A stretch of DNA of 36,742 nucleotides, from the NCBI GenBank assembly GCA_016199485.1, contig JACQGO010000333.1, forward strand, positions 1 to 36,742, written 5' to 3'. Positions 176 to 13,412 of this stretch are shown here, piece after piece (within the stretch, counting starts at the first letter, position 1; the number at the start of each line of letters is the position of its first letter). The position numbers and the translations under genes were made by a program. The notes beneath the pieces were generated by a model. It was not told the DNA's origin. It was given only the letters and a program-made list of their open reading frames with translations, and searched no databases. This DNA comes from Betaproteobacteria bacterium. Lineage in GTDB: Bacteria; Pseudomonadota; Gammaproteobacteria; Burkholderiales; SG8-41.

Positions 176-367
176 GATTACACTCCAATGGGTGATGGAT
201 GCGGGTTCGACCGGGGCTCGCGTCAGCGCAGGTGATCGGAGCGCAGAACCGGGCGGAGCACACGCCTGCGATGATCATGCACGCTGCGGCTCCCTGACAT
301 TTCCCGGTCATTTTCGCGCAGTCTACCAGAATTTGGCCCGAGGCGCTTGCCGCGGGCGACGGTTCCT

Positions 368-401
368 GGCATCATGATGCCTTGTCATAAACATCATGAT
401 G
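368..401. promoter_or_regulatory. Two tandem palindromes, probable VapB operator
   Basis: GGCATCATGATGCC (368-381, perfect 14-bp palindrome) and CATCATGATG (392-401), centres 22 bp apart, just upstream of the antitoxin ATG at 419. Confidence 0.65.
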
Positions 402-418
402 CCTCACGGCATCCACCG

Positions 419-667
419 ATGCGGACTACGGTGACCCTCGACGAAGACGTCGCTGCGAAGCTGCGTTTGGAAGCACGGCGCTCGGGCAGGCCGTTCAAGC
501 AGACGCTGAACGACGCGCTGCGGCGCGGCCTGCTCGAAAGCAGGCGCGGCTCGGCACGCCGCGCCTTCCGCGTGAAGGCCCGCGACCTGGGCCGCATACG
601 TCCCGGCATTTCACTCGACGACATCGGCGGGCTGCTCGACCGTGTCGAAGGCGAGCGGCGTCGTTGA
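419..667 (+). CDS. Ribbon-helix-helix type antitoxin (VapB-like)
   Basis: MRTTVTLDEDVAAKLRLEARRSGRPFKQTLNDALRRGLL; overlaps the start of a PIN-domain ORF. Confidence 0.8.
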   Translation: MRTTVTLDEDVAAKLRLEARRSGRPFKQTLNDALRRGLLESRRGSARRAFRVKARDLGRIRPGISLDDIGGLLDRVEGERRR

Positions 668-1095
668 TCCTCATCGACGCCAACCTGCTGCTGTACGCCT
701 ACCACGCCGGGGCGCCCCAGCACGCCGCAGCGAAACCATGGCTCGAGACCGTGCTCGCCGGCGGCGATCCAGTGGGCCTCTCGTGGAGCACCATGCTCGC
801 GTTCCTGCGCATCGGCACCAGCCCGCGCGTATTCGAGCGCCCCTACCGGATCGAGGAAGCTGAAAGGATCGTATCGGCGTGGCTCGACTGCCCTGCGGTC
901 TCGGTGCTGCGGCCGGGCGAGCGCTACTGGGAGATCCTGCGCGCGCTGCTGCTCGAAGCGCGGGCGGAAGCGACGCTGGTGAGCGACGCGGCGCTGGCCG
1001 CGCTCGCCATCGAGCACGGGGCGACGCTCTGCTCGACCGACCGGGATTTCCGGCGGTTCAAGCAGCTCAAGCTGCGTAACCCGATCGAGAGCTGA
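664..1095 (+). CDS. PIN-domain toxin (VapC-like)
   Basis: MILIDANLLLYAYHAGAPQH...W...SVLRPGERY...LVSDAALAALAIEHGATLCSTDRDFRRF: conserved PIN acidic residues; TTG start overlaps antitoxin stop (TTGA). Confidence 0.85.
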   Translation: MILIDANLLLYAYHAGAPQHAAAKPWLETVLAGGDPVGLSWSTMLAFLRIGTSPRVFERPYRIEEAERIVSAWLDCPAVSVLRPGERYWEILRALLLEARAEATLVSDAALAALAIEHGATLCSTDRDFRRFKQLKLRNPIES

Positions 1096-1140
1096 GCCGC
1101 AAGCCGTGATGATCGAACCAAGAAATCATCAAGACGCAAT

Positions 1141-1276
1141 GACAGCGGACTGCGTGCGGGACCACGCCGGCTTGCACGCCGTGCGGCGCCCCGCGACAAT
1201 GCGGCTTTCCAAGCCCAACTAAGCCGCACGTGATCCCGGGAGGAAGCGAAGCGTCCTCGCGCATCGTCGTCGACGC
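1141..1276 (+). repeat. Copy A of duplicated promoter/5' coding segment (copy B 6630-6764)
   Basis: CCGGCTTGCACGCCGTGCGGCGCCCCGCGACAATGCGGCTTTCCAAGC...CCGGGAGGAAGCGAAGCGTCCTCGCGCATCGTCGTCGACGCG aligns by eye with 6657-6764. Confidence 0.75.
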
Positions 1277-3986
1277 GGGCGTGGCGCCAAGCGCTCTCGC
1301 CCCGGTCCTCACTCCGCACGGCCGGCTCATCCTGGCGCAGGCGGAAGACGCTTCCGCGCTTGCCCCCGACCTCTTGCGGAGGCTACAACAGTCCTTCGCG
1401 CGCGGCCCCGGCCACGGGCTGTTGCAGCTCGGCGCGGGAGAGGTCTCGACGGCATTGCCGCCTGTCTTCGGCTACTGGCGCGAGTTCGGCGCGCGCTATG
1501 TGACAGCGCTCTGCATGCTGCCGGAGATCGAGGAACGCCGCGCCGCGGCGCAGATCCCCGCCCCGCCGCCTGAAGAGCTCGAAACGCTGGCCGCGGCCGC
1601 CCCGCCGATGACAGGAGCGGAGTATCTGACGGCGTCCGTTCTTCGGGCGCTCTGGGTGGCGCTCGACGCCGCGTTTCGCGCGGAGCTGTCCGAGTCGAAA
1701 GAATCGATTCAGGACTTCCTCAAGCGCCGGAGTCTGGCCTGGAACCTTGTGGGCCGCGTCCATTTCAACCTCGCCGAAAACCGCAAGGACGATGAGGCGC
1801 CGTTCGCGTTCCTGGCGACGTACACCACGCGGCTGTCGGCACATGCGAAAGCCCAGCATCTGCCGCTTGGGCAGGCGCTGCGCGAGTATGCGGGCGCGGC
1901 GAACAGGGAGCGGCTGCTCTCGCTGCTGCTTCCGGTCCAGCGCGCGGCGGAAAAATGCCCCTGGCTCAAAACGATGGTGGACGCGGGCGAGATTTTTCAT
2001 CCGCTGCGCTGGACGCCGGGCGAAGCATTCCGGCTCCTCACGGACATGCCGCTCCTGGAAGCCGCGGGAGTCGTGGCGCGCGTGCCGGTCGCGTGGAGAA
2101 CGGGACGCCCGCCGCGTCCCCAGGTGAGCGCCACGGTCGGCGGCAAGGCGCCGTCCGCGCTCGGCAGGGATGCTCTCCTCGACTTCCGCATGGAGGTCAC
2201 CCTCGACGGCGAGCGGCTGACCGCCGGCGAAATCGCCAGGCTGCTCGCGGGATCGGACGGTCTTCAGCTCATCCGCGGGCGCTGGGTCGAGGTCGATCGA
2301 GAGAAGCTCGGCCGGATGCTCGACCAGTTTCGCGAGGTCGAACAAGCCGCCGCGCAGGGCGGCCTCAGCTTCGCCGAGGCGATGCGCATGCTCGCCGGCG
2401 CAAACATCTCCGGCGAAGAAACGGCCGGCGCCGCTCCCGACTGGTCGCGCGTCGTCGCGGGTCCCTGGCTCGCCGAGATGCTCAAGGGGCTGCGCAGTCC
2501 GGAGGGGCTGGCGCGCATGGAGCCGGGCAACGAGCTCAAGACGACGCTGCGGCCCTACCAGCAGGTCGGCGTGCGCTGGCTCTACCTCCTGTACCGGCTC
2601 GGCCTCGGGGCCTGCCTTGCCGACGACATGGGTCTGGGCAAGACGATGCAGGTGCTGGCGCTGCTGCTCGTGCTGCGCAGACAGGAGCACGCCGGGCGGC
2701 GCGCCAGCGTGCTCGTCGCCCCCGCCTCGCTGCTTGCGAACTGGGCTTCCGAGATCGAGCGCTTCGCGCCGGGTCTGAAGGCGCTCATCGCTCATCCCTC
2801 GGCGATGCCGGCGGCCGAGCTGAAGGCGCTCGATGCAGCGCGCTTCGCGGATGTGGATCTGGTCATCACGAGCTACGGATCGCTCCTGCGGCTGCCTTGG
2901 CTCGCGAACACCCCGTGGCGCGTAGCGGTCCTCGACGAAGCGCAGGCGATCAAGAACCCCGCGGCGAAGCAAACGCGGGCCACCAAGAAGCTCGACGCGC
3001 AGGTGAGGTTCGCGCTGACCGGCACGCCGGTCGAGAACCGGCTCGCGGACCTCTGGTCCATCTTCGATTTCATCAACCCGGGCCTGCTTGGCTCCGGCAA
3101 GGAGTTCACGAGCTTTACCAGGCGCCTTGCGGGCCGACCCCACAATCCTTACGCGCCGTTGCGCGAGCTGGTGCGCCCTTACATTCTGCGGCGCTTGAAG
3201 ACCGACAAGTCGGTCATCGCCGACCTTCCGGACAAGACCGAGATCAAGGCCTTCTGCGCGCTCAGCCGCAGGCAGGCGGCGCTCTACCAGCAAGCGGTGA
3301 AGGAGCTGGCCGCCGAGCTCGAAGACGCCGAGGGCATCGGGCGCAAGGGCGTCATCCTGTCGTTCCTGATGCGCTTCAAGCAGATCTGCAACCATCCGTC
3401 GCAGTGGCTGGGCGACGGCGCATGGGCCGAGGCCGACAGCGGCAAGTTCGCACGGCTGCGCGAGATCGCCGAGGTCATCGCCGCGAGGCAGGAGAAGGCG
3501 CTCGTGTTCACGCAATTCCGCGAAGCGACCGCGCCGGTCGCCGCCTTCCTCGGATCGGTGTTCGGGCGACCCGGGCTCGTCCTGCACGGCGGGACCGAGG
3601 TGAAGAAGCGCAAGGATCTGGTCCAGCGGTTCCAGGAGGACGAGCAGGTTCCGTTCTTCGTGCTCTCGCTCAAGGCGGGCGGCGCCGGCGTCAACCTCAC
3701 CGCCGCGACTCACGTAGTCCACTTCGACCGGTGGTGGAATCCGGCGGTGGAGAACCAAGCCACGGACCGCGCCTTCCGCATCGGCCAGACCAGGAACGTG
3801 CTCGTGCACAAATTCGTTTGCCGGGGGACGGTCGAGGATAAAATCGATACACTGATCGAATCGAAGCAGCAGCTCTCGAAGGATCTGCTGGAAGGCAGCG
3901 CGGAGATGCTGCTGACGGAAATGAGGGACGACGAACTCCTGAAGCTCGTCGCTCTCGACATTCATGCCGCCTCACAGGAAGGATGA
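1230..3986 (+). CDS. SNF2-family DEAD/DEAH-box helicase
   Basis: LRPYQQVGVRWLYLLYRLGLGACLADDMGLGKTMQ (motif I), LDEAQAIKNP (motif II), FALTGTPVENRLADLWSIFDF, VLSLKAGGAGVNLTAATHVVHFDRWWNPAVENQATDRAFRIGQ. Confidence 0.95.
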   Translation: MIPGGSEASSRIVVDAGVAPSALAPVLTPHGRLILAQAEDASALAPDLLRRLQQSFARGPGHGLLQLGAGEVSTALPPVFGYWREFGARYVTALCMLPEIEERRAAAQIPAPPPEELETLAAAAPPMTGAEYLTASVLRALWVALDAAFRAELSESKESIQDFLKRRSLAWNLVGRVHFNLAENRKDDEAPFAFLATYTTRLSAHAKAQHLPLGQALREYAGAANRERLLSLLLPVQRAAEKCPWLKTMVDAGEIFHPLRWTPGEAFRLLTDMPLLEAAGVVARVPVAWRTGRPPRPQVSATVGGKAPSALGRDALLDFRMEVTLDGERLTAGEIARLLAGSDGLQLIRGRWVEVDREKLGRMLDQFREVEQAAAQGGLSFAEAMRMLAGANISGEETAGAAPDWSRVVAGPWLAEMLKGLRSPEGLARMEPGNELKTTLRPYQQVGVRWLYLLYRLGLGACLADDMGLGKTMQVLALLLVLRRQEHAGRRASVLVAPASLLANWASEIERFAPGLKALIAHPSAMPAAELKALDAARFADVDLVITSYGSLLRLPWLANTPWRVAVLDEAQAIKNPAAKQTRATKKLDAQVRFALTGTPVENRLADLWSIFDFINPGLLGSGKEFTSFTRRLAGRPHNPYAPLRELVRPYILRRLKTDKSVIADLPDKTEIKAFCALSRRQAALYQQAVKELAAELEDAEGIGRKGVILSFLMRFKQICNHPSQWLGDGAWAEADSGKFARLREIAEVIAARQEKALVFTQFREATAPVAAFLGSVFGRPGLVLHGGTEVKKRKDLVQRFQEDEQVPFFVLSLKAGGAGVNLTAATHVVHFDRWWNPAVENQATDRAFRIGQTRNVLVHKFVCRGTVEDKIDTLIESKQQLSKDLLEGSAEMLLTEMRDDELLKLVALDIHAASQEG

Positions 3987-3989
3987 CGC

Positions 3990-4847
3990 ATGTTCTATCG
4001 GTGGAAGCCTTACGTATCCGCGGCCGAGCGCCGGCGTAAAGCCGAGCGCGCGATGGCGAGATTCAGGAAAAAGGGCCGGCCGCTGTCGCCGGTGGTCATC
4101 GAAGGTCGCGCCATCGCCAGGACCTTCTGGGGCAAGGCGTGGTGCGACAACATCGAGCGCTACAGCGACTATTCGAACCGGCTGCCGCGCGGACGGACCT
4201 ACATCCGCAACGGTTCGGTGCTCGACCTGCAAATCGCCGCCGGCGAGGTGAGGGCGCAGGTGATCGGGTCCGATATCTACCAGGTCGAGGTCAAAGTCGC
4301 GGCGGTCCCGAAGGCGCGCTGGAAGGCGATCTGCAAGGACAGCGCGGGGGCGATCGACTCGCTCGTGGAGCTTTTGCAGGGGCGTTTCTCCAAGGGCGTG
4401 ATGGAGCGCATCTGCCGGGAGAAAACCGGGCTGTTTCCCTCGCCGGCGGAGATCACGTTCTCCTGCAGTTGCCCGGACTGGGCCTCGATGTGCAAGCACG
4501 TCGCGGCGGTGCTCTACGGCATCGGCGCCCGCCTGGACGAGAAGCCCGAGCTGCTGTTCGCGCTGCGCAAGGTAAACGAGAAAGACCTGATCGCGAAGGC
4601 CGGCAAGGACCTCACGCTGACCGGGAAAGCGCCGGCGGCGGGGAAAGTTCTCGAAGGCGCGGAGCTTGCCGAGATCTTCGGAATCGAGATCGCGCAGGCC
4701 GCGGAGCCGGGTGCGGGGGATCGCACCGGGGCGGAAAAGCGAAAGCGCGCGACATCGGCGGCGAGGCCGACCGGCGGGAGTGGCACGACAGCGCGCAAGG
4801 CCAACACCCGCGGGCGCGGCCCGGGGAAGCGGCGTCCGAAGAGCTGA
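3990..4847 (+). CDS. SWIM zinc-finger protein, partner of the SNF2 helicase
   Basis: FSCSCPDWASMCKHVAAVLYGIGARLDEKPELLFALRKV: CxC...CxH SWIM signature; starts 3 bp after the helicase stop. Confidence 0.9.
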   Translation: MFYRWKPYVSAAERRRKAERAMARFRKKGRPLSPVVIEGRAIARTFWGKAWCDNIERYSDYSNRLPRGRTYIRNGSVLDLQIAAGEVRAQVIGSDIYQVEVKVAAVPKARWKAICKDSAGAIDSLVELLQGRFSKGVMERICREKTGLFPSPAEITFSCSCPDWASMCKHVAAVLYGIGARLDEKPELLFALRKVNEKDLIAKAGKDLTLTGKAPAAGKVLEGAELAEIFGIEIAQAAEPGAGDRTGAEKRKRATSAARPTGGSGTTARKANTRGRGPGKRRPKS

Positions 4848-4871
4848 AAAGGACAACATTCGAGTCGGGAG

Positions 4872-5510
4872 CTATCCAAAAGCTTTCTTGACCAACGCAA
4901 TGCATTCATCAAAGCTCCGGCGATAATCCAGGACCTCAAGTTCGGCGAATGTCTCTCTCAAAGCCACGTTCTGTGAAGCAATTCTCTGCAAGACCATGTC
5001 TCGACGATCGCGGAGTACAGGCCCGATTTTCCAGAGGGCGCCAGGTTCCTCCTCCGTCACCATCGCCAGGTCGAAAATATCTCTCGCAGTGAATTCGACA
5101 CCGCGGTGCCAGACTTTCTTCGCGACGATTTCGGTGGAAGTCTCGACCTGGACTTGGCGGCCGAATAACTCTTCCGTGACCACAGGATCTTCGGTTAGGG
5201 GAGCGGACGCTACGAAGTCAATCTCGCCTTCCGGAAAAATAAGCTTGAGAGAGTTCGCTCGCTCAACGTAGTTGGTGGTCAGCGACTCGGCTGCCGTATT
5301 GAGCCTGGGATTCAGGTAGCCCAGATACTGCGGATCGGGGACGAAGATATCTATGTCCTTGCTGAAGCGATGATGGTGACGACGCATGAGAACGGTCGCG
5401 CCCCCGAAACTCCAGTCTTCAAGCGTAATGCCTGCGTAGCTAACTGAATCGATCAGTTTTAACGCACGCTGAAAGAGCGTCTCCCAGATCCTCAGCCGGT
5501 CTTCAGCCAT
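4872..5510 (-). CDS. AbiEii/AbiGii-family nucleotidyltransferase (putative toxin)
   Basis: LEDWSFGGATVLMRRHHHRFSKDIDIFVPDPQYL: GG...R.S.DIDIF nucleotidyltransferase motif; overlaps the XRE gene upstream. Confidence 0.8.
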   Translation of the reverse strand: MAEDRLRIWETLFQRALKLIDSVSYAGITLEDWSFGGATVLMRRHHHRFSKDIDIFVPDPQYLGYLNPRLNTAAESLTTNYVERANSLKLIFPEGEIDFVASAPLTEDPVVTEELFGRQVQVETSTEIVAKKVWHRGVEFTARDIFDLAMVTEEEPGALWKIGPVLRDRRDMVLQRIASQNVALRETFAELEVLDYRRSFDECIALVKKAFG

Positions 5511-5989
5511 CCCTCGACGCTCCGCGATACCCCCAGGTCGTTCGCCAGCTTGCGCAGGTTCCTCTCGAGTTTTCCCGGTTTCGTCCATCCAGCCGCTTCC
5601 TCAGCGAGCCCTTGCAGCAAGGCCACCGGCGCCTCGTCAAGCAGCGTCCTTAAATGCGAACCTCGCTTTGCCGGGACCTTGCCGGTCACGAGCGCATGGA
5701 TCAGCTCGTCCTCGGTGAGCGCGCTCTTGAAGCTCACGTTCGCGCTCGTGCATGCCATACGCACGTAGTCCGGCCGGCGTGGCCGCATCCCCTGTTGCAA
5801 CGTTACGCTCAGCCCGAGGTGGTCAAGCACGGCCAATACCTTTCGAATGCCCAGGTCACGCACAAGGCCGCTCTCCAGCAGGTTGAGCGTTTCGCGGGAC
5901 AGCCCTGCCGCGCGGGCGAGCTGCGCCTGCGTCAGCCCCCGCGCATGACGCGCCCTCCGGATCTCGTGCCCCAGTTCCTGGGTCCGCAT
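5492..5989 (-). CDS. XRE-family HTH protein (putative antitoxin of the nucleotidyltransferase)
   Basis: LGHEIRRARHARGLTQAQLARAAGLSRETLNLLESGLVRDLGIRKVLAVLDHLGLSV: canonical HTH_3; overlaps the nucleotidyltransferase start. Confidence 0.85.
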   Translation of the reverse strand: MRTQELGHEIRRARHARGLTQAQLARAAGLSRETLNLLESGLVRDLGIRKVLAVLDHLGLSVTLQQGMRPRRPDYVRMACTSANVSFKSALTEDELIHALVTGKVPAKRGSHLRTLLDEAPVALLQGLAEEAAGWTKPGKLERNLRKLANDLGVSRSVEGWLKTG

Positions 5990-6099: not shown

Positions 6100-6148
6100 A
6101 AGACTTTAAGATCGTCGAGGGGATGATCTGAGCGTAATGGAGATTCTC

Positions 6149-6550
6149 ATGCGGACCATTGAAGTGGATTTCGACGTGTATAAGGCACTGATGATGCGGC
6201 GGCCGTCCGAGGACGTCACCGAAAATGACGTGCTGCGCGACCTGCTTCAGCTCCCGCGCAAGAAAGGGCCGGCCGTGGCACCGGCAGGCCCGGCTCCGGG
6301 TGACTGGATCACCAAGGGCGTGCGGTTCCCCGCCGGCACCGAGTTCCGGGCGCACTATAAGGGGCAGACCTACCTCGCGCGTGTGGGGTCGGGCGCGCTC
6401 GTGCTTAACGGCAAGCGGTACGATTCGCCGTCTTCAGCCGCGGTTTCGATCACGGGAAGCGCGATCAACGGCTGGCGCTTTTGGGAAGCCAGATTGCCCG
6501 GGGAGGCGGGCTGGAAGATGATCGAGTCGCTGCGCCGGTCGGGCGGCTAA
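6149..6550 (+). CDS. SeqA-N-like segment fused to a RAMA-like domain; hypothetical
   Basis: MRTIEVDFDVYKALMMRRPSEDVTENDVLRDLLQLPRKK resembles the SeqA N-terminal oligomerisation segment; GTEFRAHYKGQTYLARVGSGALVLNGKRYDSPSSAAVSITGSAINGWRFWEA resembles RAMA (restriction enzyme adenine methylase associated) domains. Confidence 0.6.
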   Translation: MRTIEVDFDVYKALMMRRPSEDVTENDVLRDLLQLPRKKGPAVAPAGPAPGDWITKGVRFPAGTEFRAHYKGQTYLARVGSGALVLNGKRYDSPSSAAVSITGSAINGWRFWEARLPGEAGWKMIESLRRSGG

Positions 6551-6629: not shown

Positions 6630-6764
6630 GATAGCGCGTGGCGTGCAGCGTTGCCCCGGCTTGCGTGCCGCGCGCCGCCCCGCGACAATGCGGTTATTCA
6701 AGCACAAAAAAACACATGTTACCGGGAGGCAACGAGGCATTCTCGCGCGTCGTCATCGACGCGC
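6630..6764 (+). repeat. Copy B of duplicated promoter/5' coding segment (copy A 1141-1276)
   Basis: CCGGCTTGCGTGCCGCGCGCCGCCCCGCGACAATGCGGTTATTCAAGC...CCGGGAGGCAACGAGGCATTCTCGCGCGTCGTCATCGACGCG. Confidence 0.75.
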
Positions 6765-8833
6765 TGCTGGAAGACGTCGGGTGGAATCTCACCGACGGGC
6801 GGAGCGTGCGCTATGAATATCCGCTCGCGGACGGAACGCGCGCTGACTATGTATTATCCGACCGTCACGGCCGCGCGCTCGCGGTCGTCGAAGCCAAGCG
6901 TTTCAGCGTGAATCCCGCCGATGCGGCGGCGCAGGGCCGCGCCTACGCCGAGCAGCTCGGCGTGCCCTTCGTGTTTCTTTCCAATGGGCGTGAGACCCGC
7001 TTTTGGGACTATGCCGCCGAAGCGCATCCCCGGCCGGTGAAAAGTTTCTTTTCCCAGGACAACCTCGAGCGCCGCGCGGCCACACGTAAGCTCCGCACCG
7101 ACCCGCTGGCGATCCCGATCGATCACCGCATCGTCGAGCGCGACTATCAGGTCGAGTGCATTGATACGTTGTGCCGGGAAATCGCGCGGGGCCGCCGCAA
7201 ACTCTTGGTCGAGATGGCGACTGGCGCCGGGAAGACGCGCATGGCCGCCGCTTTTATCAAACGCCTGTTTGAGGCGAACGCAGTCACACGGGTGCTGTTC
7301 CTGGTGGACCGCATCCCGCTCGCGATGCAGACCGAGGACGCCTTCACGGAGCACCTGCGCGACTATCCGTGCTACGTGCTGCGCGCCGGCCGCCGTTTTC
7401 AGGACGAGAAGCGCATCACGATCACCACACTGCAATCGATGATCAACATCTACCGCGACTACTCGGCAGGATATTTCGATCTCGTGATCTCGGACGAGTG
7501 TCACCGCTCGATCTATGGCAAATGGAAGAATGTCCTGTTGCACTTCGACGCCATTCAACTCGGGCTCACCGCGACGCCGTGCGTTGCGGCCGATTTGCGC
7601 ACCGGCGACGACGAGGATCGCCTTTTCGTACGCGATACCCTGCGCTTTTTCGAGGTGGAGAAGCCCACCTACGCCTATTCCCTGCGTGAAGCGATCCGCG
7701 ACGGCTGGCTGGTGCCCTATCAGATCTACAAGGCGAAGACGGTCAAGACCGCCGCGGAAGGCGGTTTCGAAGTTCGCCGCGACGAAATCCTCTGGGACGA
7801 GCTGGACGACAAGACCCGCAACGAGCTCGACCAGGCCTTTGGCGGGCGGGATTCAATCATGGTGGATCCTACCGCGCTCGAACGCCGCTTCACCATCCCG
7901 GAGCGCAACCGCGCCATCGTGCGCGAGTTCAGGGAGGTGATGGAGAACGGTTACGCCGACGCGAAGGGCATGCCGAGAAAACCGCTCATCGGCAAGACCA
8001 TTGTTTTCGCCGTCACCAAACGCCATGCCGAAACTCTCGCGCGGCTGCTCGATGGCGCTTTCGCTGACAAGAAGCCCTCGCCCGAGATACGCTACGCCGA
8101 CTATGTGGTCTCCGGGCTGGGCCCTGAGGATACCACCGACGCGATAATCAAGATTCGCCGCTTCAAGAAAGCGCAGGAGAAGTTTCCGCAGATCATGGTG
8201 TCGGTGAACATGCTCGACACCGGTTTTGACTGCCCGGAGGTCGTGAACCTTGTGTTCGGGCGGTTCACCAAGTCGCTTATTCTCTACCGCCAAATGCGGG
8301 GCCGCGGCACGCGCAAAGTGCACGGCAAGCCGCTCTTCACCATGTTCGACTTTGTCGGCGTGAGCGACTACCACGAGGACGAGGAGACGTACGGCGAGGG
8401 CGGGCCGCTCGTAGTGGACCGCACCCGGCCCCGTCCGCATCCCCGGGCGCTGGTTGTGGTGGACACCGATGATCACATCGATCCCGCGACGCGCGCGTGG
8501 ATTACGGTGGACGAGAACGGCAATCTCGTCTTTCCGGCGGCCTCGGAGGTTCGACAGAGCGAGGTTGGCGTGCGCTTCGAAGCCTGGCTCGGCGAGCAGG
8601 AACTGTCGCCCGATCAGTTGCGCCTCTTGAAAGTGGTCGGCGAGCAAATCCGCGCCAACGCCGAGCAGTGGAACGAATTCACTCCGGATCACTTCGAAGT
8701 GTGGTCGGCCCGCGGGCACTGGGACCGGCGCCGTGCGGTCGAACTTTTCGGCGATGAAAAACGGCTCGCCGAGTTATGCGCGGGTATGAGCCGCGCGGTA
8801 TTCGGGGACGGCGGCGCACGCGCCGCGCATTGA
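6716..8833 (+). CDS. hsdR: Type I restriction endonuclease R subunit
   Basis: N-terminal nuclease region (ADYVLSDRHGRALAVVEAKR), MATGAGKTRMAAAFIKRLF, ISDECHRSIYGKW, GLTATP, KSLILYRQMRGRGTR; followed by hsdM and hsdS. Confidence 0.93.
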   Translation: MLPGGNEAFSRVVIDALLEDVGWNLTDGRSVRYEYPLADGTRADYVLSDRHGRALAVVEAKRFSVNPADAAAQGRAYAEQLGVPFVFLSNGRETRFWDYAAEAHPRPVKSFFSQDNLERRAATRKLRTDPLAIPIDHRIVERDYQVECIDTLCREIARGRRKLLVEMATGAGKTRMAAAFIKRLFEANAVTRVLFLVDRIPLAMQTEDAFTEHLRDYPCYVLRAGRRFQDEKRITITTLQSMINIYRDYSAGYFDLVISDECHRSIYGKWKNVLLHFDAIQLGLTATPCVAADLRTGDDEDRLFVRDTLRFFEVEKPTYAYSLREAIRDGWLVPYQIYKAKTVKTAAEGGFEVRRDEILWDELDDKTRNELDQAFGGRDSIMVDPTALERRFTIPERNRAIVREFREVMENGYADAKGMPRKPLIGKTIVFAVTKRHAETLARLLDGAFADKKPSPEIRYADYVVSGLGPEDTTDAIIKIRRFKKAQEKFPQIMVSVNMLDTGFDCPEVVNLVFGRFTKSLILYRQMRGRGTRKVHGKPLFTMFDFVGVSDYHEDEETYGEGGPLVVDRTRPRPHPRALVVVDTDDHIDPATRAWITVDENGNLVFPAASEVRQSEVGVRFEAWLGEQELSPDQLRLLKVVGEQIRANAEQWNEFTPDHFEVWSARGHWDRRRAVELFGDEKRLAELCAGMSRAVFGDGGARAAH

Positions 8834-8843
8834 GGAAGCCGCA

Positions 8844-10466
8844 ATGCCTTTTACCGCTGATATGCGCCGTGCGGTCGAGCAAATCCGCGACTATCTCTAC
8901 GGCGGCGGTTATCCCGATCCTGTCAACAACGCCGAGCAGCTTTCGTTTCTGTTCTTTTTCTATCTGGCTGAAGGTCTGGATGTGCAGCAGGCAGCGCGTG
9001 CGCGTATCGCCAAGAAGGCGCGCCAGAGCGTTTTCGCCGGGGATTGGAAGCTGAAGAATCCGCTCAACGCGCAGTCCTTTGGCGGCAAGAAAACGATTCC
9101 GCGCGAGAATCTGCGCTGGTCGGTATGGGCGAATGGGCTTTCGGGTGAGGCGTTGGTGCGCTTCGTGCGTGACGAAGTGTTTCCGTTCTTTGCCGAAATG
9201 GCGAACGGCAGCGCAGTCAACTTCATGGACGGCGCGCGGCTCTCGATCGACGAGCCGACCGTGCTCACCCAAGTCGTGAATCTGGTGAATGGACTGCATC
9301 TCGATCAGGCGGACGCCGACTCGAAGGGGGATCTGTTCGAGCACGTGCTCAAGCAAATCCGGCAGGCAGGCGAGCTCGGCCAGTTCCGCACACCGCGCCA
9401 TATCATCCGCACCATCGTCGAGATCGTCGATCCGAAGATCGGCGAGACGATCTACGATCCGGCGGCGGGCACCGCCGGTTTTCTGGTCGCCGCCTACAAC
9501 CATATCCGGCTTGCAAATTCATCGCCTGACGGGATCGAGGAAGTCGAACTCGACGGCAAGAAAGTGCGCCGCGGACTCGGCGACCGGCTTTCCGCCGCCC
9601 AACAGACGATACTCGAATCGCGCACTTTCTTCGGCAACGATGTCGATCCGAAGATGGTGCACCTGGCGACAATGAACCTTACGCTGCGCGGGCTGCCCGG
9701 CGTGCGCATCGTCAAGCGCAACGTGCTTACCACGCCGCTCGAACCCGAAGCTAAGCAGGCACTCGGCATTCCGGCTGAGGGCTACAGCGTGGTCCTCGCG
9801 AATCCGCCGTTCTCCGGCCGCCTCGACAAGGACCGCATCCTCGACGACATCAAAGTTGGAACCACGACTGCGACAGAAATTCTCTTCGTAAAATATATGC
9901 TCGAAAGCCTGAAGCCCGGTGGTCGGTGCGGTGTAGTCGTTCCGGACGGGCTACTGTTTGGGCCTAGCGGTGCGCACAAGGAACTTCGACGACAACTTCT
10001 CGAGAACAATACTTTAGAAGCAGTTATGTCACTTCCAGGAGGCGTTTTCCAGCCTTATTCAAATTCAAAGACGTCGGTTCTCTTCTTCCACAAAAGCGGC
10101 TCGACTGCACGTGTGCTGTTCCTGCATGCCGATGCCGACGGCTACAAGCTCGATGCCCAGCACGACACTCCCATCGACGACGACGATTTGGCTACGCTAA
10201 TTGACATCTACCGCAACCGCGAGAAGCTGGCGAAGAAATGGGAAAAGCGCGACAGCAAAGCCGAGTGGAAAGACAAATGGTGGTTTGCCTCCGCGGACGA
10301 GGTACGTGCACGGGATTTTAACTTATCGGTAGGCACCTACCGCCCGTTTATCAAGACCCGAGTTGAGCATCGCGATCCGCGGGAATTGCTTGATGAGCTG
10401 AGTGCAATTGAAACCGAAATCGCGAAAGAAATCGATTCGCTTCGAGACTCATTTTCACGCACCTAG
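8844..10466 (+). CDS. hsdM: Type I DNA N6-adenine methyltransferase M subunit
   Basis: GQFRTPRHIIRTIVEIVDPKIGETIYDPAAGTAGFLVAAYNHI and VVLANPPFSG (NPPF) motifs. Confidence 0.97.
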   Translation: MPFTADMRRAVEQIRDYLYGGGYPDPVNNAEQLSFLFFFYLAEGLDVQQAARARIAKKARQSVFAGDWKLKNPLNAQSFGGKKTIPRENLRWSVWANGLSGEALVRFVRDEVFPFFAEMANGSAVNFMDGARLSIDEPTVLTQVVNLVNGLHLDQADADSKGDLFEHVLKQIRQAGELGQFRTPRHIIRTIVEIVDPKIGETIYDPAAGTAGFLVAAYNHIRLANSSPDGIEEVELDGKKVRRGLGDRLSAAQQTILESRTFFGNDVDPKMVHLATMNLTLRGLPGVRIVKRNVLTTPLEPEAKQALGIPAEGYSVVLANPPFSGRLDKDRILDDIKVGTTTATEILFVKYMLESLKPGGRCGVVVPDGLLFGPSGAHKELRRQLLENNTLEAVMSLPGGVFQPYSNSKTSVLFFHKSGSTARVLFLHADADGYKLDAQHDTPIDDDDLATLIDIYRNREKLAKKWEKRDSKAEWKDKWWFASADEVRARDFNLSVGTYRPFIKTRVEHRDPRELLDELSAIETEIAKEIDSLRDSFSRT

Positions 10467-10479
10467 GCCCGTCAGACAT

Positions 10480-11679
10480 ATGCAGTATGTACCCCTATCG
10501 TCCGTTTGTGAGATCAATCCGCGCTTCCCCAAGCAGTCGCGGCCCGGCGCACATACGGAAGTCACTTTTGTGCCCATGTCAGCCGTTGACGAACAGTTCG
10601 CGGAGATAAGCATCCCGGAATCGCGCCGATACGTGGATGTCGCAACGGGGTTTACTTGCTTTCGCAACGACGACGTGCTCTTTGCAAAGATTACCCCCTG
10701 CATGGAAAATGGGAAGGCGGCCATAGCTCGAAACCTTAAGAATGGACTTGGCTTTGGATCAACCGAGTTCCACGTATTGCGTACCGGCCCAGAAGTGATA
10801 CCCGAGTGGATTTATTACTATATTCGTCAGCCTGATTTTCGAAAACGCGCGAAGAGGAACTTCCGTGGCGCTGCGGGACAACAACGCGTCCCGGCTGATT
10901 TCCTGGCGCGTGAAGTCATCCCATTGCCAGCAGTCACACAACAACGTCGCATAGTTGACATTCTCTCCCGCGCTGAGGGGATCATTCGCTTGCAACATCG
11001 AGCCGCTGAAAAAGCGCACGAAATCATCCCCGCGCTTTTTCTCGATATGTTCGGCGACCCGGCGATGAATCCGAAGGGGTGGGCGCTCACAACACTCGGA
11101 GCCACTATCGCCGATTTTCGCTACGGGACTTCAGTGAAATCCGCGAAAGACGGTTACCCAGTATTGCGTATTCCGAACGTGATTGGTGACGCAATCGACC
11201 TAGACGATATCAAATACGTGCCCCTCGACAACCGCGAGTTCGAGCGATTAAGGTTGATCGAGGATGACATACTATTTGTGCGCACCAACGGCAATCCCGA
11301 TTACGTCGGACGCTGTGCTGTGGTTACATTGCAGCAATTCAAGAACACCGGGTTCGATCCCGAGCGCTTTGCGTTTGCATCGTATCTGATACGTGGACGA
11401 CCAAACCCGGAAATTGTGAATGCCGGTTACCTCGCAAACTATCTACGTACGGCATTTGGTCGCCGAGAGCTTTTGAAACGCGCGCGCACCTCCGCTGGGC
11501 AGTACAACATCAATATCGACGGTTTATCTTCTGTGGTCGTAATGCTTCCGCCACTGCAACTCCAGCAAACATTTACCGACCGCACGAACGATGTTCGTGG
11601 CGTCCTCGCGCAGCGCGACGCGTCACGTCGAAACGGAGAAGGCTTGTTTCAAGCGCTGCTCGCGCGAAGCTTCGCATAA
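10480..11679 (+). CDS. hsdS: Type I restriction specificity S subunit
   Basis: Two target-recognition-like halves (MQYVPLSSVCEINPRFP...; GWALTTLGATIADFRYGTSVKSAKDGYPVLRIPNV) with conserved helical spacers (PLPAVTQQRRIVDILSRAEGI; LPPLQLQQTFTDRTNDV). Confidence 0.93.
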   Translation: MQYVPLSSVCEINPRFPKQSRPGAHTEVTFVPMSAVDEQFAEISIPESRRYVDVATGFTCFRNDDVLFAKITPCMENGKAAIARNLKNGLGFGSTEFHVLRTGPEVIPEWIYYYIRQPDFRKRAKRNFRGAAGQQRVPADFLAREVIPLPAVTQQRRIVDILSRAEGIIRLQHRAAEKAHEIIPALFLDMFGDPAMNPKGWALTTLGATIADFRYGTSVKSAKDGYPVLRIPNVIGDAIDLDDIKYVPLDNREFERLRLIEDDILFVRTNGNPDYVGRCAVVTLQQFKNTGFDPERFAFASYLIRGRPNPEIVNAGYLANYLRTAFGRRELLKRARTSAGQYNINIDGLSSVVVMLPPLQLQQTFTDRTNDVRGVLAQRDASRRNGEGLFQALLARSFA

Positions 11680-11730: not shown

Positions 11731-12306
11731 ATGCGATCAGACGGAAATGAAAATCAAGGCGCTGCGACAAGCAGGCTACCTTTGATTAGGCTCGCGGATC
11801 GCCACCCTGGACTTACCAAGGCTATCGGGGACGGGTATTGCGAGGCAGCATCGGTTTGCCTCAGTAGACATCACGAGCCGCCCTCTGACCTCGTTGTAGA
11901 TTGTGAAGGCAATTCCTCGAAGTGCAGCGCGGAATGGGTCGCACCCGACCAACAAACAAAAGCGGCATGGGCGAATGAAATAGATGCAACCGAAGCCGGC
12001 GCGTATGGTGTGTCCCTTGCGGCCATCGAACTGGCCAAGGGTCTCGTCGCGGTAAGACGCGCAGAGACACTCACAGGGGCCGACTACTATGTGGCACCAC
12101 TCGGCACCAATGCAGATGATCTTGAGGCATGCATGCGCTTGGAAGTCTCCGGAACTGACAAAGGAAATCGAGCTGTTATTCAGCAGCGCCTAAAGGCGAA
12201 GATCAGCCAAGCTACCGCTGCTGCGAGCAATCTCCCCGCGATTGCCTCCGTGGTGGGATTTCGTGAGTGTGCAGTGGTGATTGCTAAGATGGATGATGCG
12301 TTATGA
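11731..12306 (+). CDS. Hypothetical protein, first gene of hsdS-linked coupled pair
   Basis: 191-aa ORF on the operon strand, 51 bp after hsdS; ATGA overlap with the next gene. No family recognised. Confidence 0.6.
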   Translation: MRSDGNENQGAATSRLPLIRLADRHPGLTKAIGDGYCEAASVCLSRHHEPPSDLVVDCEGNSSKCSAEWVAPDQQTKAAWANEIDATEAGAYGVSLAAIELAKGLVAVRRAETLTGADYYVAPLGTNADDLEACMRLEVSGTDKGNRAVIQQRLKAKISQATAAASNLPAIASVVGFRECAVVIAKMDDAL

Positions 12307-13412
12307 CCTGGGCTGATTGGCATAAGCGTAGCGAAGCGCTCGCATCCGAAGCATTCATTGCGACGCGCGCAGGTCAAGCGGATCAGGCCGTGACTCTATA
12401 CGCTCAGGCGGCAAACGCAGAAGAACGAGCCTTGCGTGAGCTTGACCGTTCTAAGGCGCGCACTCTTGGTGTCACGGCGATTAGCGTGGTTTCTCTCTGG
12501 TTCAAGGCGCGGGAATACCAGCGTGCCGAACAACTTGCGTTCTCCATACTTGGAAACGAGAAACTACCGGATTTTGCTACTACCGACTTGCGTACTCTCG
12601 TCCAGACCATCTGGACAGAAGGCTCCAAGAAGCGGGCGGGTGTCTTATTTCTCCCTGGACAGGTCGTTGTTTCTGTCAAAGGGGGCGAGATCATCACTGG
12701 TGGCGCACCGCTCGATCTTATCGTGGATAAGGTGCAGACCATCCAGTCGCTGTTCTACCGCACTATTGAGTTCGTCAAGGGTATGCCGCATCGCATGCAC
12801 GGCGGCCCGATCCGTGAGGTCCAGGAAGCCTGCCGTCCGTGGTTATTCCAGGCCCCCGCAGGAAGCTACCAGTTTTCGGTGGCGATTCAGGAGCCCGCAC
12901 AGAGGGATTTTTTTCAAGACACCATTAAGCCCGATCAAATCGCATGGCACTTCCTTGAGATTCTGAAGGCGACTGTCGACGACGAGCGGCAGGCTTTGGA
13001 AGCAATTGTCCCTGACAAGCAATACCGCTCTACGTTCTTGAGGCTCTCGCGCAATCTCGCGCCCACGGGGCGCACCTTTGCACAAATGGAGGTCAAGGCA
13101 GCAGGTGAATCGAGCGGCGTGGTTCTCATGCCTGAAAGCCGCTCCACGATCAACAGAACTCTTCGCGAGCAATCCAAGCCCCTCGAGGTCGAGGGTGAGC
13201 AGGAAACCTCGATCACTGGAGCACTGCGCGCCGTGCACCTCGACAAGGACTGGCTCGAAGTTGCTGTTGAAGGGAAAACAGTCCACATCGGGGGGCTAAA
13301 GGACACGGTTGACGATGTGATCGGCCCCATGGTGAATCGTCAGGTCATCGTCCGCGCCGCTAAATCCTCCAAGGACAAGCTTCGATTCATCGATATTGAG
13401 CTTGATGAGTGA
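12303..13412 (+). CDS. Hypothetical protein, second gene of hsdS-linked coupled pair; helical (TPR-like?) N-terminus
   Basis: 369-aa ORF starting in the upstream stop codon (ATGA); N-terminal repeat-like helices (QADQAVTLYAQAANAEERALREL...FKAREYQRAEQLAFSILG). Confidence 0.7.
   Translation: MTWADWHKRSEALASEAFIATRAGQADQAVTLYAQAANAEERALRELDRSKARTLGVTAISVVSLWFKAREYQRAEQLAFSILGNEKLPDFATTDLRTLVQTIWTEGSKKRAGVLFLPGQVVVSVKGGEIITGGAPLDLIVDKVQTIQSLFYRTIEFVKGMPHRMHGGPIREVQEACRPWLFQAPAGSYQFSVAIQEPAQRDFFQDTIKPDQIAWHFLEILKATVDDERQALEAIVPDKQYRSTFLRLSRNLAPTGRTFAQMEVKAAGESSGVVLMPESRSTINRTLREQSKPLEVEGEQETSITGALRAVHLDKDWLEVAVEGKTVHIGGLKDTVDDVIGPMVNRQVIVRAAKSSKDKLRFIDIELDE

Follow-up and report, generated by a model that had tools for sequence, protein, structure and literature searches.

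A candidate two-gene accessory module of restriction-modification loci: a predicted restriction-endonuclease-fold protein translationally coupled to a TPR/OB-fold partner

Known RM-linked effectors and the present locus

Effectors linked to restriction-modification (RM) systems are already known as a kind. RM-linked toxin-like genes of the restriction-endonuclease (REase) fold have been proposed as a general theme, and the unexplained genes that often follow RM systems have been proposed to be coupled suicide or dormancy effectors (PMC3506569). In PrrC/EcoprrI, a nuclease-type effector located in or beside a type I RM locus is proposed to provide a second line (PMC12707154, review). CoCoNuTs, type IV restriction systems predicted to target RNA, combine a REase-superfamily nuclease with OB-fold-bearing partners in defence loci, according to the available part of their description.

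The gene pair described here, A and B, recalls each of these systems and differs from each. PrrC is a single protein of the ABC-ATPase/HEPN type that acts on tRNA, whereas A-B consists of a predicted REase-fold protein and a TPR/OB partner, is devoid of an ATPase and is found beside several RM types. Compared with CoCoNuTs as presented in the same partial description, A-B is made of different genes and includes neither the McrB GTPase nor the coiled-coil protein. The neighbouring hsdM is distantly similar to MAD2 of the MADS systems and its operon carries extra genes; however, it scores 131.8 of 720 bits, far under the family cut-off, and A and B match no MADS model. In the libraries and literature searched, this module of two proteins appears undescribed, as do its divergent family of the REase fold and the range of RM types beside which it occurs; no description of the pair was found in a literature survey of incomplete coverage.

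The pair lies within a stretch of 36,742 nucleotides (the window; contig JACQGO010000333.1, assembly GCA_016199485.1, Betaproteobacteria bacterium), together with the following genes.

347-1095, RHH and PIN pair, upstream of the RM operon
1230-3986, SNF2 and DUF3670 helicase resembling the C-termini of ZorD/DpdE, upstream of the RM operon
3990-4847, SWIM-like ORF, upstream of the RM operon
4872-5989, minus strand, AbiEii nucleotidyltransferase with an HTH gene, upstream of the RM operon
6638..8833, plus strand, hsdR (context; library matches)
8844..10466, plus strand, hsdM (context; library matches)
10402..11679, plus strand, hsdS (context; library matches)
11731..12306, plus strand, ORF A, 191 aa, predicted REase-like (PD-(D/E)XK) fold protein with a non-canonical active site
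12303..12306, plus strand, 4-bp ATGA stop/start overlap of A and B
12303..13412, plus strand, ORF B, 369 aa, with a TPR-like N-terminus, a middle domain and a C-terminal OB-fold

Library searches identify hsdR, hsdM and hsdS as a genuine type I RM set. The end of hsdS at 11679 is separated from the start of A by a gap of 51 bp, and the two ORFs of 191 and 369 aa, joined by a 4-bp ATGA overlap on the strand of hsdS, sit exactly where an initial annotation of the sequence had placed them. The start codon of A is uncertain: the annotated ATG at 11731 has no obvious Shine-Dalgarno sequence, an alternative TTG at 11782 comes just after AGCAGG, and DNA similarity to a relative (locus L035) begins only at about 11791, 3′ of that ATG. 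Directly before hsdR, a small ORF (6137-6550) encodes a RAMA/DUF2924-type domain with a weak match to the PADLOC model PDC-S14, and is possibly an extra gene of the RM operon. Further defence or toxin-antitoxin-type content occupies positions 347-5989 upstream.

That same annotation had found neither A nor B recognisable as a known RM accessory gene, and the searches agree with it: no credible match to either protein was obtained in Pfam, PADLOC (database of 2023), NCBIfam or PHROGs, nor among PDB sequences searched by phmmer and by profile (hmmsearch). An NCBIfam match of A to an SDR model was discarded as noise (E 0.0018; 17.8 bits against a cut-off of 306).

Predicted folds of A and B

The AlphaFold model of A, computed from 12 own plus fetched sequences, has a mean pLDDT of 90.4 and a pTM of 0.87. 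In Foldseek searches its ten best PDB matches are all REase-like and include archaeal and human tRNA-splicing endonucleases and Holliday junction resolvases, with Rai1/DXO-type and Cas4-like nucleases at lower ranks; the best E-value is only 0.023, and for neither A nor B does any Foldseek E-value fall below 0.02. Among viral models, the matches to A were weak and of the PD-(D/E)XK type, with none closer; the named ones include several PD-(D/E)XK nucleases. A restriction-endonuclease (PD-(D/E)XK) fold is therefore a well supported prediction for A. An assignment as a tRNA-splicing endonuclease, after the top fold match, was dropped, the E-value being only 0.02 and only the general fold being common to both. 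The predicted active site maps as follows.

11992..11994, plus strand, E88 of A, motif I position, helix A, invariant in alignment A3
12082..12084, plus strand, D118 of A, motif II position, start of strand 2, invariant
12142..12150, plus strand, E138-V-S140 of A, motif III position, strand 3, E invariant and S in place of the canonical Lys
12199..12210, plus strand, K157 to Q160 of A, motif IV helix, K157 a candidate migrated lysine

E88, D118 and E138 are the only invariant acidic columns of A in that alignment, and in the model they occupy the positions of the motif I-III acidic residues. A nuclease-like D...E-x-S core, initially offered as speculation, thus falls at PD-(D/E)XK positions of a REase-fold model. 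The motif-III catalytic lysine (E-x-K) is absent, its place being taken by Ser, or by Ala in L017. Migration of this lysine to the motif-IV helix is documented for DUF506, DUF790 and DUF1626, the DUF506 motif being given as (D/E)X(S...), in the portion of PMC1913061 available; because of such variants, the motif-III lysine is not strictly defining for the superfamily. A has no Pfam match and no detectable sequence similarity to these three families, for which the same portion of that paper does not describe a TPR/OB partner. In A, Q160 is invariant and K157, in the helix following motif III, is kept in all rows of the alignment except L011, which makes K157 a candidate for the migrated catalytic lysine and an active but variant site plausible. 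On this model, A adds to the PD-(D/E)XK superfamily a divergent family that the sequence libraries searched here do not recognise.

Conversely, A could be inactive, since the canonical lysine is missing and S140 is not strictly kept. REase-fold domains that are inactive yet retain nucleic-acid binding have been described (PMC1189080), and A might likewise be a catalytically dead nucleic-acid binder, with A-B contributing to the assembly or specificity of the adjoining RM enzyme or acting as its anti-anti-restriction factor. The replacement of the motif-III lysine by Ser or Ala would suit such a helper, as would the same-strand arrangement with a short gap to RM genes in several loci. Against it, even very divergent members share an unchanged metal-binding triad, and K157 is nearly always retained; the neighbouring RM systems, considered below, bear on it further.

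The AlphaFold model of B (pLDDT 82, pTM 0.67) resolves into three parts.

12309..12635, plus strand, B residues 3-111, five helices, TPR-like (Foldseek: Fis1, HOP TPR2A, kinesin light chain)
12654..13172, plus strand, B residues 118-290, mixed alpha/beta middle domain (from the model; lower confidence at 128-134 and 180-210)
13200..13403, plus strand, B residues 300-367, OB-fold-like beta domain (LRAVHLDKDWLEV...VDDVIGPMVNR; Foldseek: RPA14, CusF, CcmE, Ten1/Stn1, PolD)

The helices of residues 3-111 are paired and antiparallel and superimpose on Fis1 with a TMt of 0.72; Pfam gave no TPR match to B. Residues 300-367, in keeping with a small five-stranded OB barrel, match RPA14, CusF, CcmE and Ten1 with probability 1.00 and TMt values of about 0.45-0.60. 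Overall, the TPR and OB-fold matches reach probabilities of 0.99-1.00 but weak E-values. The helical-repeat N-terminus and compact C-terminal domain first read from the sequence of B hold in both the model and the fold matches. Sequence conservation is highest in the middle region, for which no relative was identified. The second gene of Anabaena and Leptolyngbya consists of the TPR part only, which suggests that A plus a TPR domain is the minimal unit.

Conservation, mobility and neighbourhoods of the pair

The closest pair, at locus L035 in G054, another genome of the same family, shares about 81-82% identity in both proteins. A single DNA match between it and the window spans both genes, from about 11791 to the stop of B, with unrelated flanks on either side. 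Both are real genes under strong purifying selection, with dN/dS values of 0.11 for A and 0.06 for B against L035 (Nei-Gojobori; synonymous changes near saturation). At least 14 further loci encode A, B or both. A scan of genome contigs returned nine loci in which most of B aligns at 44-61% identity and A is directly upstream, and viral contigs contributed four more distinct loci (L016, L017/L019, L018 and L022). On plasmids of Anabaena, Leptolyngbya and Hymenobacter, an A-like gene is followed by a gene that starts like the N-terminal domain of B, mostly with the same 4-bp overlap; the ATGA overlap is also present in L004, L005, L006, L010, L013, L014, L016 and L022. The last of these bridges both branches by combining a cyanobacterial-type A with a full-length B, and the adjacent order of A then B is kept across a range that reaches from Betaproteobacteria to cyanobacterial plasmids. 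The two proteins have diverged in parallel: their distances correlate with r = 0.92 over 55 pairs (permutation p = 0.0005), a coefficient that tree shape alone can raise.

The pair is rare. Besides the window's own genome, it was detected in 2 of 99 relatives, one of which has a truncated B only, and in 0 of 398 genomes of the phylum samples; no close B was found in phage and plasmid records. In Hymenobacter radiodurans (L014:8465-9370), a B-type TPR N-terminus runs in frame into a sugar transferase (PF02397); the fusion may have arisen by deletion. Near the A-like pair of the Anabaena plasmid pANACY.01, a 1134-aa ORF (L013:9870-13271, minus strand) exceeds the threshold of the Pfam RNA-dependent RNA polymerase family (PF05183; 26.4 against 23.8 bits).

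The initial annotation had described the module as attached to the type I RM operon. This does not hold as a fixed association: the four closest HsdM proteins (71-73% identity) belong to genomes G013, G024, G071 and G073, all without B, and the pair is missing from the closest homologous hsdRMS operons, while the upstream neighbour in L035 is not hsdS but a 767-aa ORF of no RM type on the other strand. An obligatory place in the hsd operon is therefore rejected. Most relatives of the neighbouring RM systems likewise do not have the pair; for example, 40 plasmid records encode a relative of the L004 Mod protein at E 1e-50, although a window-type B is found in none of the plasmid records. Integrases or transposases adjoin several copies (L010, L016, L017, L022). 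From the closest hsd operons being without the pair, the unrelated flanks in L035 and these adjoining mobility genes, it follows that the pair is a mobile accessory that has landed beside RM systems of different types.

Several of these settings are RM loci. In L004, L005 and L006, which by record title are two Betaproteobacteria/Burkholderiales MAGs and one Deltaproteobacteria MAG, the pair comes after a BPTD_3080-family Res (in L004, 1371 bits against a cut-off of 800) and a type III Mod (in L004, 1513 bits in PADLOC), and is then followed by a UvrD-like helicase gene. These three loci also contain interchangeable toxin-like inserts (DarT, YhcG, ORF6N-like, TIGR04255), and the Res(BPTD_3080)-Mod(type III)-A-B-UvrD-like cluster could be a system in its own right. 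L022 places the pair in a type II D12/SacI setting within a Mu-like phage, in the order D12 adenine methylase, SacI-family restriction enzyme, AbiV, A and B, with a Mu-type transposase on the contig. The pair of L016 is flanked by a serine recombinase on one side and a PglX-like methyltransferase gene on the other, and the upstream region of L010 holds Mrr, an integrase and an HsdR fragment. In G011/L036, a B of 33% identity that is truncated and located at a contig end stands just before a different hsdMSR operon; its foreign 35-aa start (L036:12-116) recurs on several unrelated contigs of the family and is probably the end of a mobile element.

Of 11 genomes, 5 encode a PF01555 methyltransferase no more than 10 kb from the pair, where 0.53 would be expected (P about 3e-5); with the three MAGs rich in such genes set aside, the count is 3 and the expectation 0.13 (P about 2e-4). 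The test leaves out the type I genes of the window, and its P values are indicative, given the few genomes and a possible shared ancestry of the whole cluster in L004-L006. RM linkage thus recurs in independent loci, though not in every copy: no RM gene is near the pairs of L035, L012, L017, L013, L014 and L020, some of them on short contigs. The co-occurrence analysis suggested at the outset accordingly found RM neighbours of types I, II and III as well as a PglX-like methyltransferase. Of the original proposal of an RM accessory, the RM and defence neighbourhoods stand, being far above expectation, and the specific tie to type I falls. The pair may also be a stand-alone defence system, the other possibility raised initially.

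These neighbourhoods bear on two of the alternatives. The pair might travel in integrative islands as passenger genes with an unrelated function, brought near RM genes by common hot spots; integrases or transposases beside the four loci named above and the non-RM neighbour of the closest pair would agree with this. Against it, copies of the pair directly adjoin RM genes of at least four types on the same strand, and the Res-Mod-A-B-UvrD order is conserved in three distant genomes. The homologues' neighbours are moreover mostly defence rather than metabolic genes, and a passenger origin is the most doubtful of the readings considered. No consistent housekeeping context emerged for the pair, and neither A nor B is assigned to a known non-defence family. 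As for a catalytically dead A that assists the adjoining RM enzyme, those enzymes are of unrelated types, so a specific subunit role is unlikely, and the closest hsd operons work without the pair. On balance this helper role seems rather unlikely.

Decay of the pair and a proposed second line

Broken copies form a pattern drawn from four or five MAG loci, where sequencing errors are possible. In L009, A is split by an insert and B is whole; in L020, the frame of A is broken and the TPR gene is whole; in L007, A possibly carries a frameshift; and in L012, both genes are broken. The only intact A beside a broken B is found in L011, where B is interrupted by an IS, and this A is also the sole carrier of K157E. 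The insert in L009 (L009:8761-9867, about 1.1 kb) brings in the 5′ portion of a gene for an N6_N4 DNA methylase, which is joined to the tail of A, and the IS in L011 (L011:10605-12142, about 1.5 kb) is bounded by perfect terminal inverted repeats of 24 bp and contains a UPF0236-like ORF of 467 aa. The pattern would fit an A that is harmful without B, in too few loci to show it.

Such a pattern might also be left by a toxin-antitoxin or addiction cassette carried in mobile islands and uncoupled from RM, with A as a nuclease toxin and B as its antitoxin. The architecture of two overlapping genes on mobile elements would be in keeping with this, and so would the retention of B beside a broken A in L009, L020 and possibly L007 and the K157E substitution in the one intact A left beside a broken B. 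With its large size and several domains, however, B does not resemble typical antitoxins; general defence-island clustering apart, the RM enrichment would go unexplained; and the decay pattern amounts to a handful of loci. Such a cassette is improbable, somewhat more so than the helper role.

The reading preferred here, at a probability of about one half, is that A and B form a mobile accessory module of RM loci, two genes linked by translational coupling and encoding an effector and an adaptor that together act as a second line. A would be the REase-fold effector, probably cleaving nucleic acid with a variant active site formed by E88, D118 and E138, its catalytic lysine having moved to K157 of the next helix. 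The TPR region of B may bind A or an RM subunit, and its OB-fold may bind nucleic acid as a sensor; through these two proposed contacts, B would keep A silent or aim it. As with PrrC, the module would most likely come into play once the RM system beside it has been engaged or evaded.

A bolder form of this proposal is offered tentatively. A-B may be an unnamed plug-in immune module, indifferent to RM type, in which a variant-site REase-fold effector and a TPR/OB sensor can link up with RM systems of type I, II or III, firing when restriction is engaged or blocked. The company that the pair keeps with RM genes suggests an add-on anti-phage module, and a pair that moves between unrelated RM types would provide a clean test case for RM activity, or its inhibition, as a trigger.
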